DNA from: Burkholderiales bacterium | GTDB lineage: Bacteria; Pseudomonadota; Gammaproteobacteria; Burkholderiales; Burkholderiaceae_C | Assembly (NCBI GenBank): GCA_028868995.1 | Contig: JAGWTH010000032.1 | Span: 1-46,141, forward strand | Direction of reading: 5' to 3' | Length of the DNA: 46,141 nucleotides | Shown: positions 4,950 to 28,630 of the stretch, piece by piece | Position numbering within the stretch: position 1 is the first letter of the stretch | How the letters are laid out: each line of letters starts with the position of its first letter | Notes under the pieces: model-generated | Seen by the model: the letters and a program-made list of their open reading frames with translations, nothing else | The model's database searches: none | What the model was told of the DNA's origin: nothing | Translations under genes and position numbers: made by a program

Positions 4950-4999
4950 GGGGACTCCACAGGCGCTCGAGGGCCATCGTACACACGATGGGCGGGCCC

Positions 5000-5178
5000 G
5001 TGCTGTCCGCTTTACCTGAGAGATTCGCCCCGGGCGGGGTTTGCTCCTTCGGTGGGCCGCGGTGCTGGCCGCGGCCTCTCTCCAGCAAGGTGACGCCCCG
5101 CGGACGGGGCGCTTGTCAGTCCTGGGTACCTGAGCGTTCGACGCCTTCGGCGGTTCCTCGCGGAACTCTCTCCTGACG
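5000..5178 (-). promoter_or_regulatory. Tandem glycine riboswitch upstream of gcvT
   Basis: On the minus strand the leader holds two aptamer-like units. The first (about 5176-5112) has GGAGAGAGTTCC, then AACCGCCGAAGGCG, then GCTCAGGTACCCAGGACTG. The second (about 5092-5003) has CTGGAGAGAGGCC, a long P3 arm, CCACCGAAGGAGCAA, then ATCTCTCAGGTAAAGCGGAC. GGAGAG, CCGAAGG and CTCAGG...GGAC are conserved glycine-riboswitch core elements. A short linker containing a hairpin (GCGCCCCGTCCGCGGGGCG) separates them. The gene behind it is gcvT, the classical target. Exact ends are estimates. Confidence 0.93.
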
Positions 5179-5238
5179 GCGGCGATTGTAGCCGCAGCCG
5201 CAAGCCGCCCGCGCGCGGGCGCGGGCGGCGGTGCGCGC

Positions 5239-6537
5239 TCAGGTCGCCGACGCGGCCGCGCCCTGTTCGGCGCGCTTGTCGTGGCCGATCGCCAGCACCA
5301 GCACGATCGCCACGACAGCCAGCAGCGCCAGGAACAGCACGGCGTAGAAATCGTTGCCCATCTTGTCCTTCAGCGTGCCGAAGAGGGTGGGGCCGAAGTA
5401 GCCCCCCAGGTTGCCGATGGAGTTGATCCAGGCGATGCCGGCGGCGGCGGCCGTGCCGCTGAGGATGGTGGTGGGCATCGTCCAGAACACCGGCAGCGCC
5501 GTGAAGATTCCGAAGGAGGCCAGCGTCACGAAGGCCATCTTGGGCACTGGCGCGGCGGTGGCCGCGGCCCCCACCAGTCCGGCGGCGATGCACACGAGCG
5601 AGGCCAGCACGAAGCCCTTGCGCTCCTTGGTCGCGTCCGACATCTTCGTCCACCACAGCATGCCGATCGCGCCGATCAGGTAAGGGAAGGCATTGATGAA
5701 GCCGATCTGCACGTTACCCAGGCCGCCGAAGCCGCGGATGATCTGGGGCAGGAAGAAACCCAGGCCGTACAGGGGCACGGTCACGCCCATGTAAACAAAG
5801 CCGAGCGCGATCACGCGCCAGTTGACCAGGGACTGCTTCCAGGAGATCTTGCTGAAGGTCTCGCGGTTGCGGCGCTCGGCGTCGAGCCTGCCCAGCAGCC
5901 ACCGGCGTTCGTCGGCGTCCAGCCACTTCGCGTCCTTCGGGCCGTCGGGCAGGTAGAGCAGCACGAAGAAGGTCAGGATCAGCGCCGGCACCGCCTCGAG
6001 GATGAACAGCCACTGCCAGCCGTGCATGCCGCCCATGCCTTCCATGTTGAGGATGTAGCCGGAGATGGGCGAGCCGATCACCGTGGAGATCGGGATCGCG
6101 AACATGAACCAGCCGACGATGCGGGCGCGGTAGGTCGCCGGGAACCACAGGGTGATGTAGAAGATGACGCCCGGGAAGAAGCCCGCCTCGGCGATCCCCA
6201 GCAGGAAGCGCACGATGTTGAAGCTCGTCGCGCTGCCCACCCAGGCCTGCACGGCGGAGATCACGCCCCAGGTGAACATGATGCGGGCGATCCAGCGGCG
6301 CGCGCCGAAGCGCTCCAGCGCCAGGTTGCTCGGCACCTCGAACAGGAAGTAGGCCAGGAAGAAGATGCCCGCGGCGCTTCCGAAAACGGTGCTGGAGAAG
6401 CCCAGATCCTTCGACATCGCCGCCCCTGCGAAGCCCAGGTTCACGCGGTCCAGAAACGCGACGAAGTAGCTGACCATCAGCAGCGGCAGCAGCCGCCAGC
6501 TGATCTTGGAGATGGTCCTTTGCTCGAGTGCATCCAT
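5239..6537 (-). CDS. MFS transporter, anion:cation symporter (phthalate/tartrate/glucarate) type
   Basis: A 432-residue inner-membrane transporter with about 12 hydrophobic segments. The opening LPLLMVSYFVAFLDRVNLGFA, then FFLAYFLFEVPSNLALERFGARRWIARI and FLLGIAEAGFFPGVIFYITLWFP, are typical of the anion:cation symporter family. The family takes up organic acids with protons, usually aromatic acids, tartrate or sugar acids. The substrate cannot be read from the sequence. It lies downstream of the ETF-QO gene on the same strand but beyond that gene's terminator, so it probably has its own promoter in 6538-6650. Confidence 0.88.
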   Translation of the reverse strand: MDALEQRTISKISWRLLPLLMVSYFVAFLDRVNLGFAGAAMSKDLGFSSTVFGSAAGIFFLAYFLFEVPSNLALERFGARRWIARIMFTWGVISAVQAWVGSATSFNIVRFLLGIAEAGFFPGVIFYITLWFPATYRARIVGWFMFAIPISTVIGSPISGYILNMEGMGGMHGWQWLFILEAVPALILTFFVLLYLPDGPKDAKWLDADERRWLLGRLDAERRNRETFSKISWKQSLVNWRVIALGFVYMGVTVPLYGLGFFLPQIIRGFGGLGNVQIGFINAFPYLIGAIGMLWWTKMSDATKERKGFVLASLVCIAAGLVGAAATAAPVPKMAFVTLASFGIFTALPVFWTMPTTILSGTAAAAGIAWINSIGNLGGYFGPTLFGTLKDKMGNDFYAVLFLALLAVVAIVLVLAIGHDKRAEQGAAASAT

Positions 6538-25723: not shown

Positions 25724-26247
25724 AATGCGCGCCTGAACCGCGGGCGTCGTTCAATGGCAGGACCTGAGCTTCCCAAGCGTGCGACCTGATGGTCGTCGCC
25801 TACCCCCCGACGGTCGGGGGCCTCGAAAGAGGAGTCATCCGCACCAGCAGTCCTTGTGACTGCATTCAACTGTCTGACCACGTCTCGCGACGCGGTCAGG
25901 CCGCCCGGGCCGAAAGGTCGCCGGGCGAAACAGCCAACGAGGTCCGTCAGGACCCCCGCGGCACAGCCGGCCGAAAGGTCGGTGGTAAGTAGCGCGGCCT
26001 CAAGCTGTGCATGAAGTTGTCGCAGCGCCGAAAGGCGAGAGCGCGACCCGGTGTTCAGCCACCGGTAGCCTAGGTGCGGTGCGGGCTGGTAACGGCCCCG
26101 TGCTACAGCGCACTGACAACGTAGCCACCCCTTCGGGGGTTCGTGGCGCCCGTGAGGGTGCCCCGGAATACTGGAAGTCGAAATCCGGTTGAGGCGCTAG
26201 GCTGGGTCAACAGGGTTAACGGAAGTGAACCACTGCTAAATGTCGTC

Positions 26248-26308
26248 AAGCTCGACCAGACCAATTCGACGAAGTAGGTTTGGAGCGATCGGCTACCCCC
26301 TTGCTTGG
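26248..26308 (+). other. Intron exon-binding sites EBS2 and EBS1
   Basis: EBS2 is AAGCTC at 26248-26253 and EBS1 is GCTTGG at 26303-26308, both in the domain I region. They are exact complements of GAGCTT and CCAAGC in the interrupted tRNA exon. EBS2 can extend by a G-T pair. The two exon sites are separated by one base. This fixes the intron's 5' boundary independently of the GTGCG motif. Confidence 0.82.
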
Positions 26309-26628
26309 TGGGAGTACGCTGACAAGATGATCGCCGGCAAAAAGGTGGAACCCTCCTGACTCGTGCTTCGTGTACGGAACAGGGTAAGCCCGATACGGTG
26401 TGTGGCAGCGATGCCACACGAACTCGGTTGTAAGATCGAGCCTGCCGTAGCGGGTAAAGGATCGTGGAAAAAGCGAAGGCCGTCCTGTAATGGGACGGAT
26501 AGGGACGAATGTCCTGACCCGAAAGGGTGCAGACTTCCACGTGGTGGTCCTGTCGCAAGATAGGCCAGTAACAACCGCCCGAGGGGTGAAATGCCCCTCG
26601 CGGGCATGCTCATTCCCTCCGGGAACGG

Positions 26629-26702
26629 GCGGGTGTAGTTCAATGGTAGAACGGCAGCTTCCCAAGCTGCATACGAGGGTTCGATTCCCTTCACCCGCTC
26701 CA
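26629..26702 (+). tRNA. Intact tRNA-Gly(CCC) carried inside intron domain IV
   Basis: A 74-base cloverleaf with encoded CCA: acceptor GCGGGTG/CACCCGC, D arm GTTC/GAAC, anticodon stem GCAGC/GCTGC with loop TTCCCAA (anticodon CCC), and T arm GAGGGTTCGATTCCCTT. It has the same anticodon as the interrupted host gene but differs from it at 13 of 74 positions, so it is not a recent copy. It lies 17 bases ahead of the reverse-transcriptase ATG and just after two small hairpins (about 26580-26600 and 26614-26626). Confidence 0.96.
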
Positions 26703-26719
26703 TTTCAACGGAGGTTGAT

Positions 26720-28348
26720 ATGGACGCAAGCCATTGCGATGTTGCCTCCCCCACTTGGTCTGACTGGCACGGTATTCCGTGGTCGGACGTGCACCAGGTG
26801 GTCGGTAGGTTGCAGGCACGGATTGCGAAAGCAGCAAAGGCAGGCGAATGGCGCAACGTCAAACGCCTACAGAAACTCCTCGTTCGATCCACCAGTGCGA
26901 AGGCATTGGCGGTACGGCGGGTGACCGAGAACCGGGGTCGCAAGACACCGGGGATCGACGGACAAACCTGGGATACGCCGACTGACAAGTGCCAGGCGAT
27001 CGGAACGCTGCAAAGCGCCGGTTACAAGCCAAGGCCCCTGCGGCGGGTTCAGATTCCGAAACCGAATGGTGGCAAACGCCCTCTAGGCATCCCCACCATG
27101 CGTGATCGGGCTATGCAGGGACTACACCTGCTGGCACTGGATCCTGTCGCTGAAACGGTTGGTGATGTTCACTCGTACGGCTTTCGCCGCGAGCGTTCCA
27201 CCACGGACGCCATCGTGCAGGTGCGCAACGCACTTGACCGCAAGGCGTCCCCGAAGTGGGTGCTCGAGGGGGACATCAAAGGGTGCTTCGACAACATCAG
27301 TCACGACTGGCTATTGCGTCACGTCCTCATGGACCGACGCATTCTGCGCAAGTGGCTGAAGGCGGGGTACTTCGAAGGGGGAGTCCTTTTCCCGACTGAG
27401 CGCGGGACGCCGCAAGGGGGGCCTATCTCCCCCGTGTTGGCCAACCTAGCGTTGGATGGTCTGCAAGACGCGCTGGCCGGACTTTTCCGGACCACACGCG
27501 CCGCGCGGGCCGCCAAGGTGAACTTCATTCGTTTCGCCGACGACTTCGTCGTGACCGGCAGCTCGAAAGAGTTGCTGGAAAACGAAGTCAAACCTCTGAT
27601 CGAGCGCTTCCTGCGCGATCGGGGTTTGATGCTGTCCGAGACGAAGACCGTGATCACGCACGTGACGACGGGCTTCGATTTCCTCGGCTGGCACGTTCGG
27701 TGGGACGGAGACGAGCTGACCACGCGACCCTCCAAGAAGAACCTCAAGAACTTCCTGGACAAGGTCCGTCGCACGCTCCGCAAGGAGCGGACCGCGAACC
27801 CGCGGCGGGTGATAGAAAAGCTCAATCCGATCATCTCGGGCTGGGCCAACTATCACCGCAGCCAAGGGATCAGCCGGACATTCGCGAAAGCGGATCACCT
27901 GATCTGGCACGCGCTGTGGCGCTGGGCCTGCCGCCGTCACCCCAACAAGGGGAAACGGTGGGTCAAGGCCAAGTACTTCGAGCGCATTGCCGGCCGCGAC
28001 TGGCGCTTCACGCAGCCGGGTCAGATGTTGGTGACCTTGGCGGACTTCCCCAGAAGGACGCACATCAAGGTCGACAGCCAGCGCAACCCGTACCTGCCGG
28101 AAGACGAGCAGTATTTCGACGCGCGCCTCGCGCGCTCGATGAACAGCTCACTGACTGGTCGTCGGAAACTGGCATGGCTTTGGCGGTGGCAGGACGGAGC
28201 CTGCCCGGAGTGCGGCGAAAAGATCACACGGGAAACCGGGTGGAATATCCACCACGTGATCCGCCGTACCGAGGGTGGGAGCAACAAGCTGAGCAACCTC
28301 AGACTGCTGCACCCGAACTGTCACCGGCAGCTACACGCCAACGAGTAA
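26720..28348 (+). CDS. ltrA: Group II intron reverse transcriptase/maturase with HNH endonuclease
   Basis: 542 residues with a strong ribosome site (GGAGG). Reverse-transcriptase blocks are visible: RGRKTPGIDGQTW, RPLGIPTMRDRAMQ, SYGFRRERSTTDAI, WVLEGDIKGCFDNISHDWLL, GTPQGGPISPVLANLALDGL, and the catalytic FADD at residues 272-275 (FIRFADDFVV). A maturase (X) region follows (INPIISGWANYHRS-like). The C-terminus is a zinc-type HNH nuclease (CPECGEK from residue 495, WNIHHVIRRTEGGSN, HPNCHRQLH). It is full length, so both splicing and mobility are plausible. Base composition is less GC-rich than the neighbours, fitting transfer. Confidence 0.97.
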   Translation: MDASHCDVASPTWSDWHGIPWSDVHQVVGRLQARIAKAAKAGEWRNVKRLQKLLVRSTSAKALAVRRVTENRGRKTPGIDGQTWDTPTDKCQAIGTLQSAGYKPRPLRRVQIPKPNGGKRPLGIPTMRDRAMQGLHLLALDPVAETVGDVHSYGFRRERSTTDAIVQVRNALDRKASPKWVLEGDIKGCFDNISHDWLLRHVLMDRRILRKWLKAGYFEGGVLFPTERGTPQGGPISPVLANLALDGLQDALAGLFRTTRAARAAKVNFIRFADDFVVTGSSKELLENEVKPLIERFLRDRGLMLSETKTVITHVTTGFDFLGWHVRWDGDELTTRPSKKNLKNFLDKVRRTLRKERTANPRRVIEKLNPIISGWANYHRSQGISRTFAKADHLIWHALWRWACRRHPNKGKRWVKAKYFERIAGRDWRFTQPGQMLVTLADFPRRTHIKVDSQRNPYLPEDEQYFDARLARSMNSSLTGRRKLAWLWRWQDGACPECGEKITRETGWNIHHVIRRTEGGSNKLSNLRLLHPNCHRQLHANE

Positions 28349-28428
28349 GTTTTCTGGAAGAGAGGGGCCGACCAAGAGCCCCATTTGCTGCGGTCGGAGC
28401 GCGAACGCGCCGAGACTTCAGGCTGCTT

Positions 28429-28504
28429 GAGCCGGATGCGAGGGAAACCCGCCCGTCCGGTTCTTAGGGGAGGGACACGCCGCAAGGCGTGTTCCTTACC
28501 CGAC
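28429..28504 (+). ncRNA. Group II intron domains V and VI
   Basis: Domain V (28429-28463) has outer strands GAGCCGGA and TCCGGTTC, the catalytic AGC triad, and a GAAA loop. Domain VI (about 28466-28501) is a long hairpin with loop GCAA and a bulged adenosine at 28498, the expected branch point, 7 bases from the intron end. It follows the reverse-transcriptase stop by 80 bases. Confidence 0.93.
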
Positions 28505-28630
28505 TCAAGACGTGGGTTCGATTCCCATCGCCCGCTCCATCCCCAAGGCGCTGCGGCGCCGGGCCGCCAGGGCCCAGCGCCGCCTGCCGGATGACCCCGG
28601 AACCGCGCAGGCCCCGGGGTCGCCTCCTCG

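Follow-up and report, generated by a model that had tools for sequence, protein, structure and literature searches.

A group II intron in a bacterial tRNA-Gly(CCC) gene that carries its own tRNA-Gly(CCC): a candidate natural home-and-rescue element

The stretch of DNA analysed in our study (hereafter the window) comprised 46,141 nucleotides of contig JAGWTH010000032.1 from a Burkholderiales bacterium (assembly GCA_028868995.1), and was found to contain a group II intron of 2,726 nucleotides (25779..28504) inserted in a gene for tRNA-Gly(CCC). All features of this locus lie on the plus strand. The 5' exon (25740..25778) contains the first 39 nucleotides of the interrupted gene, up to position 40 of the anticodon stem, and the 3' exon (28505..28539) contains the last 35 nucleotides, from position 41. 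A second, complete tRNA-Gly(CCC) with an encoded CCA, hereafter the cargo, was present inside the intron at 26629..26702 (ARAGORN; Rfam RF00005, 72.9 bits), just upstream of the gene for the intron-encoded protein (IEP; 26720..28348); by its position it belongs to the domain IV side of the intron. The cargo differed from the joined exons at 13 of 74 positions. The split tRNA, the 2726-base intron between its exons and the second tRNA with the same anticodon had been described in a first-pass annotation, and all of them were confirmed by the analyses given below. The same annotation had taken the 13 differences to mean that the cargo is no simple copy of the host gene, which agrees with our results; the likely reason is the change of guide-contact pairs seen in most of the related introns.

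The joined exons were called by ARAGORN as a 74-base tRNA-Gly(CCC) in which every stem is formed and CCA is encoded. An uninterrupted tRNA-Gly(CCC) was called by the same program in 28 of 29 loci from the same genus; 20 of these 28 genes matched the joined exons at every one of the 74 bases, two differed at one base, one at four and five at ten to twelve. Since these empty sites match the joined exons, they confirm a true insertion with exactly placed exon borders; the guide pairing agrees with the 5' exon. No flanking DNA common to the window and the 29 same-genus loci was found by blastn, so that the empty sites prove the junction and not the same neighbourhood. A C28/U42 mismatch was considered as insertion damage and rejected, because it is native and was present in 27 of 29 sampled genes, a sample ranked by likeness to the window's cargo. 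The idea that the host exons are decaying relics was also rejected, as no decay was found wherever both exons were readable.

The intron starts with GTGCGAC and ends with CCCGAC, and was delimited with Rfam models RF02012 and RF00029 and the empty-site comparison. The match to domains D1-D4 (RF02012, 93 bits) was found at 26047-26196, and domains V and VI at 28427..28504 (RF00029, 52.2 bits against a cut-off of 40, and a predicted fold), where the adenine at 28498 is, from its position, the likely branch point. The IEP contains 542 amino acids and consists of a reverse transcriptase, a maturase domain and an HNH endonuclease (Pfam RVT_N, RVT_1, GIIM and HNH; NCBIfam TIGR04416, 367 bits against a cut-off of 300). 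The sequence GGAGG at 26710..26714, in a small predicted hairpin directly 3' of the cargo, is its likely ribosome-binding site. The window thus holds what defines a bacterial group II intron, namely a GUGYG 5' end, domains V/VI and an internal reverse transcriptase/maturase. Exon-binding site 1 (EBS1, GCTTGG, 26303..26308) pairs at six of six positions with intron-binding site 1 (IBS1, CCAAGC, 25773-25778) of the 5' exon, and EBS2 (AAGCTC, 26248..26253) pairs at six of six with IBS2 (GAGCTT, 25766-25771) of the same exon; with the corresponding CAGCTT of the cargo, EBS2 pairs at five of six. The first base of the 3' exon, a T, is probably IBS3. The window intron is predicted to be mobile.

Relatives of this intron were taken as the best 80 of 429 loci found, and 31 matches came from 25 of 399 genomes of the family; with the window, 110 loci were examined. 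In the family, an IEP match at an expect value of 1e-150 or less occurred in 25 of 399 genomes, eight of which (the intron's own genome included) fall in the tRNA clade described below, a scattered distribution. After the removal of five double entries (L045, L046, L049, L050, and L079), 50 introns had a protein identity above 59.5%; near-copies, such as L058/L060 and L086/L093, remain among them. Exons of tRNA-Gly(CCC) at position 40/41 were present on at least one side in 50 of 50 introns (5' exon in 44, 3' exon in 48, both in 42), and the unread exons were off the contig, beyond an island, or cut by another insertion (L071). A cargo tRNA-Gly(CCC) was also seen in 50 of 50, whole or in part, and was intact in place beside the IEP gene in 45. 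The intact cargo ended 14–18 nucleotides before the IEP start codon in all 45, with GGAGG or GGGGG in between; this near-fixed distance in 45 of the 50 introns excludes a chance arrangement. The first-pass annotation had proposed a search of the relatives for this target and this cargo, and no relative without the cargo was found among the 50.

Island-like insertions were observed in the cargo tRNA itself in three introns (L051, L080, and L084). In L084, an island was integrated at the cargo 3' end, and the intact cargo was found on the far side, by the 5' half of the intron (L263, same contig); L051 showed the same arrangement with its ends on different contigs of one genome (L262). The cargo of L080 (Thauera propionica, G429) was cut in the T loop by an island that contains its own tRNA-Gly(CCC) about 55 bases further on (L259). 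The middle of the L058 cargo was masked with N, and L089 ran into a contig end, its cargo and IEP start being present on another contig of the same genome (L260).

In a tree of 99 translatable IEPs, the 49 IEPs of the tRNA-Gly(CCC) introns formed a single clade (Shimodaira–Hasegawa-like approximate likelihood ratio support, SH-aLRT, 100). Another clade contained 26 introns inserted in ATGATGTA, directly followed by the intron's GTGCGAC. The branching order was unresolved among the tRNA-Gly clade, the ATGATGTA clade and two smaller groups; this second clade, of groEL type, is therefore termed neighbouring and not sister. In Azotobacter vinelandii (L102), the one locus checked by profile, the insertion site was the end of the chaperonin gene (Pfam Cpn60), and the first intron base completes the TAG stop codon (TA/G, the slash marking the splice point). 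An Azotobacter intron near the 3' end of groEL is reported in PMC4465626, which cites Michel et al. 2007. The earlier statement that group II introns normally target non-coding or dispensable sites was accordingly not quite right, as the neighbouring clade sits in groEL stop codons. The window intron, in tRNA-Gly(CCC) and in a separate clade, is outside this lineage. In the sampled loci the tRNA target and the cargo were found together, and only in one clade. Among the 55 more distant loci, three of them truncated on the upstream side, none had a tRNA called inside the intron.

Among eight Gallionellaceae loci, whose IEP genes were 84–98% identical in DNA, the upstream neighbour gene was common to seven, and exons and cargo were intact in all eight. 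The arrangement has therefore either persisted through speciation or been restored by homing. No common upstream neighbour was found among the nine Burkholderiales loci compared. The IEP was translatable in 49 of the 50 clade members; an internal stop occurred only in L072 (one), and the L089 IEP was cut by the contig end.

The window cargo folds as a cloverleaf in the predicted fold of intron RNA 26440–26725. Over 25 distinct 74-base cargos (two of the 27 distinct cargos, of 75 bases, were left out), 98.1% of the stem cells were paired, against 44–55% when the partners were slid. Stem cells changed on both sides numbered 59, against a shuffled mean of 20.4, and none of 500 shuffles was as high. 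The anticodon loop TTCCCAA and the end TCCA were conserved in 27 of 27 distinct cargos. On this pattern of compensated change, the cargo is kept as a tRNA. Identical native genes were also found elsewhere: the window cargo is identical to native genes in three other-family genomes of the class sample (G485, G566, and G567), and five introns carry a cargo identical to the native gene of G575 (L249). Two candidate features of the cargo were rejected. A TAnnnT motif upstream of it in the Rhodocyclales introns looked like the -10 box of an own promoter, but the other subclades lack it, and it is flanked by complementary G/C runs that look, by eye, like a hairpin stem. A role of the cargo in IEP translation was dismissed because the GGG share of the IEP glycine codons was not special (tRNA clade 0.255, groEL clade 0.272, others 0.254).

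The genome of the window gave 44 tRNA-family hits, in which the glycine anticodons were GCC (two), UCC (one) and CCC, the last only as the cargo. The count of other tRNA-Gly(CCC) genes suggested in the first-pass annotation thus returned no other CCC tRNA. A sequence pattern for intact tRNA-Gly(CCC), which would miss unusual T arms, matched 49 of the 50 intron-bearing genomes (all but that of L058), once in 48 of them. The pattern hit the cargo in 48 of 50 genomes, and in Thauera propionica it hit the tRNA brought by the island; a second match in G423 was not a tRNA by ARAGORN. The cargo was therefore the sole uninterrupted tRNA-Gly(CCC) found in 48 of 50 host genomes. The earlier proposal that the intron replaces a disrupted essential tRNA stood in part: a matching tRNA was present in 50 of 50 relatives at the same target, but the word essential is unsupported, because the pattern matched only 141 of 274 genomes of the class and many lineages can do without tRNA-Gly(CCC). 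The GGG codon can be read by tRNA-Gly(UCC) through wobble.

The pairing of the guides with the host gene was compared with the pairing to the cargo in 37 introns. EBS1 was the same in all 37 and paired with IBS1 at six of six positions. The last EBS2 base pairs with host base -13 in 11 of the 37 and not in the other 26; where it pairs, the pair varies with the host (C:G in the window, G:C in L056, L064, L078, and L087, T:A in L065 and L069, A:T in L090). When EBS2, EBS1 and a T at +1 were scored, the +1 term assuming a putative EBS3, the host site was better than the intron's own cargo in 35 of 37, with a tie in L073 and a loss in L068. In standard numbering, with the anticodon loop as the reference, 29:41 and 31:39 are the guide-contact pairs of the tRNA. 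Of 42 introns, a total that includes an extra case from the class sample (G675), 38 had a cargo that departs from its host at one or both of these pairs, and all 42 changed pairs were Watson-Crick pairs in the cargo. The cargos of L069 and L090 differ from their own hosts only at 29 and 41 of the 74 positions. Four host–cargo differences each were found in L088 and L078, four and two of them, respectively, in anticodon-stem pairs.

Native genes were used as the control. The sequence GC/T after the loop, the slash being the insertion point, was present in 126 of 141 class-sample genes (hand count, with the cargos of the window and G675 removed), and a T at +1 was present in 5 of 45 cargos as well as in L260 and the cut L080 cargo (Fisher P 1e-22 for cargos against natives, without kinship correction). 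No intron was found near the 15 native genes lacking GC/T, although for G447 only about 180 bases downstream were present, and no IEP was found near the GC/T natives in the part of the 126 that was fetched and checked. Ranked against 36 different native class-sample sequences, a reference deliberately rich in unusual ones, 40 cargos had a mean guide-pairing percentile of 0.20 (0.28 without +1), and 38 hosts one of 0.62. On the IEP tree, 17 changes were needed to explain the cargo state (29:41 with 31:39, 45 rows), while shuffling gave a mean of 21.0. With this many changes, a number that weak forks could lower, the state is not one inherited accident.

From the insertion point, the cargo, its sole-copy status and the guide pairing and mismatch, all of which are read directly from the sequence, we infer expression of the cargo, rescue, splicing, mobility and protection from self-targeting. 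The element is probably a natural home-and-rescue element, that is, an intron in the anticodon stem of tRNA-Gly(CCC) which carries a complete, guide-mismatched replacement tRNA. Two marks of such a design were found, namely a copy of the interrupted gene (50 of 50, 45 of them intact in place) and a change of the guide site with the structure kept (38 of 42). The intron ribonucleoprotein would find the tRNA gene by EBS2, EBS1 and EBS3 pairing to the anticodon arm, reverse-splice into it and be copied in by its own reverse transcriptase. The incoming intron would deliver its own tRNA-Gly(CCC), transcribed within the intron RNA, and host tRNA-processing enzymes would cut this cargo out, so that the tRNA would be kept whether or not splicing is fast; splicing, when it occurs, would also restore the host tRNA, the exons being intact. 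The compensated swap at the guide-contact positions, in most introns, would leave the cargo a good tRNA and make it a poorer target for its own intron in two senses, as a DNA target and as a false 5' splice site in RNA. Insertion into a usually single-copy gene would then be cheap, and loss of the element costly.

A wider reading, about as likely as not, is that an intron lineage specialised in one tRNA gene is engaged with its hosts in a repeated game of recoding, in which former cargos become resident genes and are then re-invaded by introns with differently recoded cargos. Three hosts have T29:A41, namely L077 and the near-copies L093/L086, and their own cargos are changed in another way. 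The interrupted gene of L077 is identical to the L081 cargo, and the host gene of L093/L086 is one base from the L090 cargo. These identities fit cargos that turned resident and were re-invaded, but they could equally have arisen through common ancestry or gene conversion.

Several results weigh against the home-and-rescue reading. Excision of the cargo from the precursor would split the intron RNA, and rescue may be worth little in some hosts, as the tRNA-Gly(CCC) pattern was absent in 133 of 274 class genomes. The full six of six EBS2 pairing with the host was found in only 8 of 37 introns. Without the +1 term, the host was better in 30 of 37, with a tie in L131 and the cargo better in six (L047, L066, L068, L073, L088, and L130). 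Both contact pairs are unchanged in four introns, the window's own (L009) with L055, L056, and L068, where the stem differences lie further out, at 28:42 and 27:43, and the window cargo has a single guide-base difference, at -13. A 29:41 mismatch is no absolute bar, because the T29:A41 hosts L077, L093, and L086 were invaded anyway. The rows are also related, some as near-copies, and the P values carry no kinship correction.

The changed pairs could serve splicing instead: within the precursor, the cargo would then not vie with the true 5' exon for EBS1 and EBS2, and false splicing at the cargo anticodon would be prevented, with no protection from DNA self-insertion. We regard this as a real possibility, though short of even: the cargo is in the same RNA as the guides, and the same EBS/IBS pairings serve both splicing and insertion in group II introns (PMC4424553). 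The cargo site, however, is partly held in the predicted tRNA fold, and sequence cannot separate this explanation from the avoidance of self-insertion. A role of the cargo as a mere processing signal, at which host tRNA enzymes cut to release the IEP message or regulate the intron while tRNA function is irrelevant, is unlikely. In every one of the 45 introns with an intact cargo its place is fixed, 14–18 nucleotides ahead of the IEP start codon with GGAGG or GGGGG between, as expected of such a signal; but any tRNA would serve for that, and the CCC anticodon loop, as in the gene that is split, occurs in 27 of 27 distinct cargos, while introns of neighbouring clades manage without a cargo.

It is more doubtful still that the cargo is a foreign tRNA acquired by chance, which differs from the host gene only because of where it came from, or because recombination between identical repeats would remove part of the intron. 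The identity of the window cargo with the natives of G485, G566, and G567, and of another cargo type with the G575 native, speaks for such an origin. Against it, the two differences (29 and 41) of L069 and L090 would hardly stop recombination but hit the guide, and the pairing of the cargos with their own guide is poorer than that of most natives (the mean percentile of 0.20, or 0.28 without +1). The least probable explanation is an intron that no longer splices, the cargo having fully replaced the split gene and the exons being relics. In 48 of 50 genomes no uninterrupted copy other than the cargo was found, but the window exons equal native genes (20 of 28 identical), the IEPs are open in the 49 of 50 that are translatable save for the one stop in L072, and the Gallionellaceae exons are still intact in a setting with the upstream gene common to 7 of 8 loci and 84–98% IEP identity.

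The home-and-rescue reading can be compared with several known systems. The groEL stop-codon introns of Azotobacter vinelandii and other Gammaproteobacteria, the neighbouring clade, have a similar IEP and are likewise site-specific in an important gene; unlike in the window, harm is avoided there by the stop codon TA/G at the splice point, and no tRNA was called inside. Prophages and integrative elements likewise insert safely in tRNA genes, and the tRNA is intact afterwards. It is, however, only the 3' end of the gene they entered that such elements rebuild, whereas the window intron brings a whole separate tRNA. The chloroplast trnK group II intron with MatK is also a ribozyme intron that interrupts a tRNA (PMC4033280, PMC4424553); tRNA introns of this type are usually at site 37/38 in the anticodon loop, and in the portions of these sources available a replacement tRNA is not described. 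IStrons (a group I intron with an insertion sequence element) are mobile elements made harmless by a ribozyme (PMC4227781), but by splicing, whereas the window intron would be harmless by carrying a replacement gene. The synthetic HomeR and Cleave-and-Rescue drives home into a gene and carry a re-coded working copy of it (PMC7968924). They are man-made, CRISPR-based, directed at protein-coding targets and dependent on sexual inheritance; the window element is a predicted RNA-guided retroelement with a tRNA in bacteria. No bacterial group II intron carrying the tRNA that it interrupts was found in the open-access literature searched, as far as its text was accessible; subscription literature was outside this search.

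Designers of gene drives arrived at homing into a gene together with a re-coded rescue; should our reading be correct, the same combination exists in bacterial retroelements, where a tRNA serves as the rescue. This would be a further way, beside splicing and the choice of safe sites, for a mobile intron to persist in a gene that is conserved. Self-target avoidance and host resistance also become directly testable, since the guides, the targets and the rescue copies of about 50 natural variants can be read from their sequences.

Other observations were made on the introns of this clade. The active-site motif of the window IEP is FADD, against YADD in each of the other 48 among the 49 clade IEPs examined. 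The last two intron bases were AC, CC, or CG in different members of the clade; the usual end of a group II intron is A followed by a pyrimidine. The intron of L072 (Dechloromonas SSB2) starts with GCGCGAT in place of GTGCGAC, and its IEP contains one in-frame stop; this intron is likely decaying. An extra open reading frame (ORF) of 142 amino acids was present between the IEP gene and domain V in L085 (5742–6170), and extra small ORFs after the IEP gene were also seen in L084 and L051, those of L051 being shorter by eye. In L071 (Massilia sp. Bi118), a second group II intron with a GTGCGCC start lies, by eye, apparently inside domain V, after position 5632; the nested pair is perhaps a bacterial twintron. 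Identical IEPs were found in draft genomes with distant labels (L058/L060, Lysobacterales and Rhodocyclaceae; L086/L093, Planctomycetota and Proteobacteria), for which a binning error is more likely than transfer.

With regard to spread by plasmids, related IEPs were present in 1,400 plasmid records; the 15 matches listed were 54–55% identical, and seven records were at 60–80%. The locus L302 was not counted as a new case, since it appears to be the contig of L057 (14,568 bases, same IEP position). Many relatives with an IEP identity of about 50% (L132–L139, L142, and L148) were directly downstream of TATAAT-like sequences by eye, and the 3' flank of the L135 and L136 introns is the beginning of a tRNA-Leu(CAG) gene. 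The genome of the window contained four more reverse-transcriptase genes or fragments (L010, L011, L012, and L013), 34–53% identical over the matched part. Tandem glycine riboswitch aptamers were present elsewhere in the window, at 4993–5185 on the minus strand.

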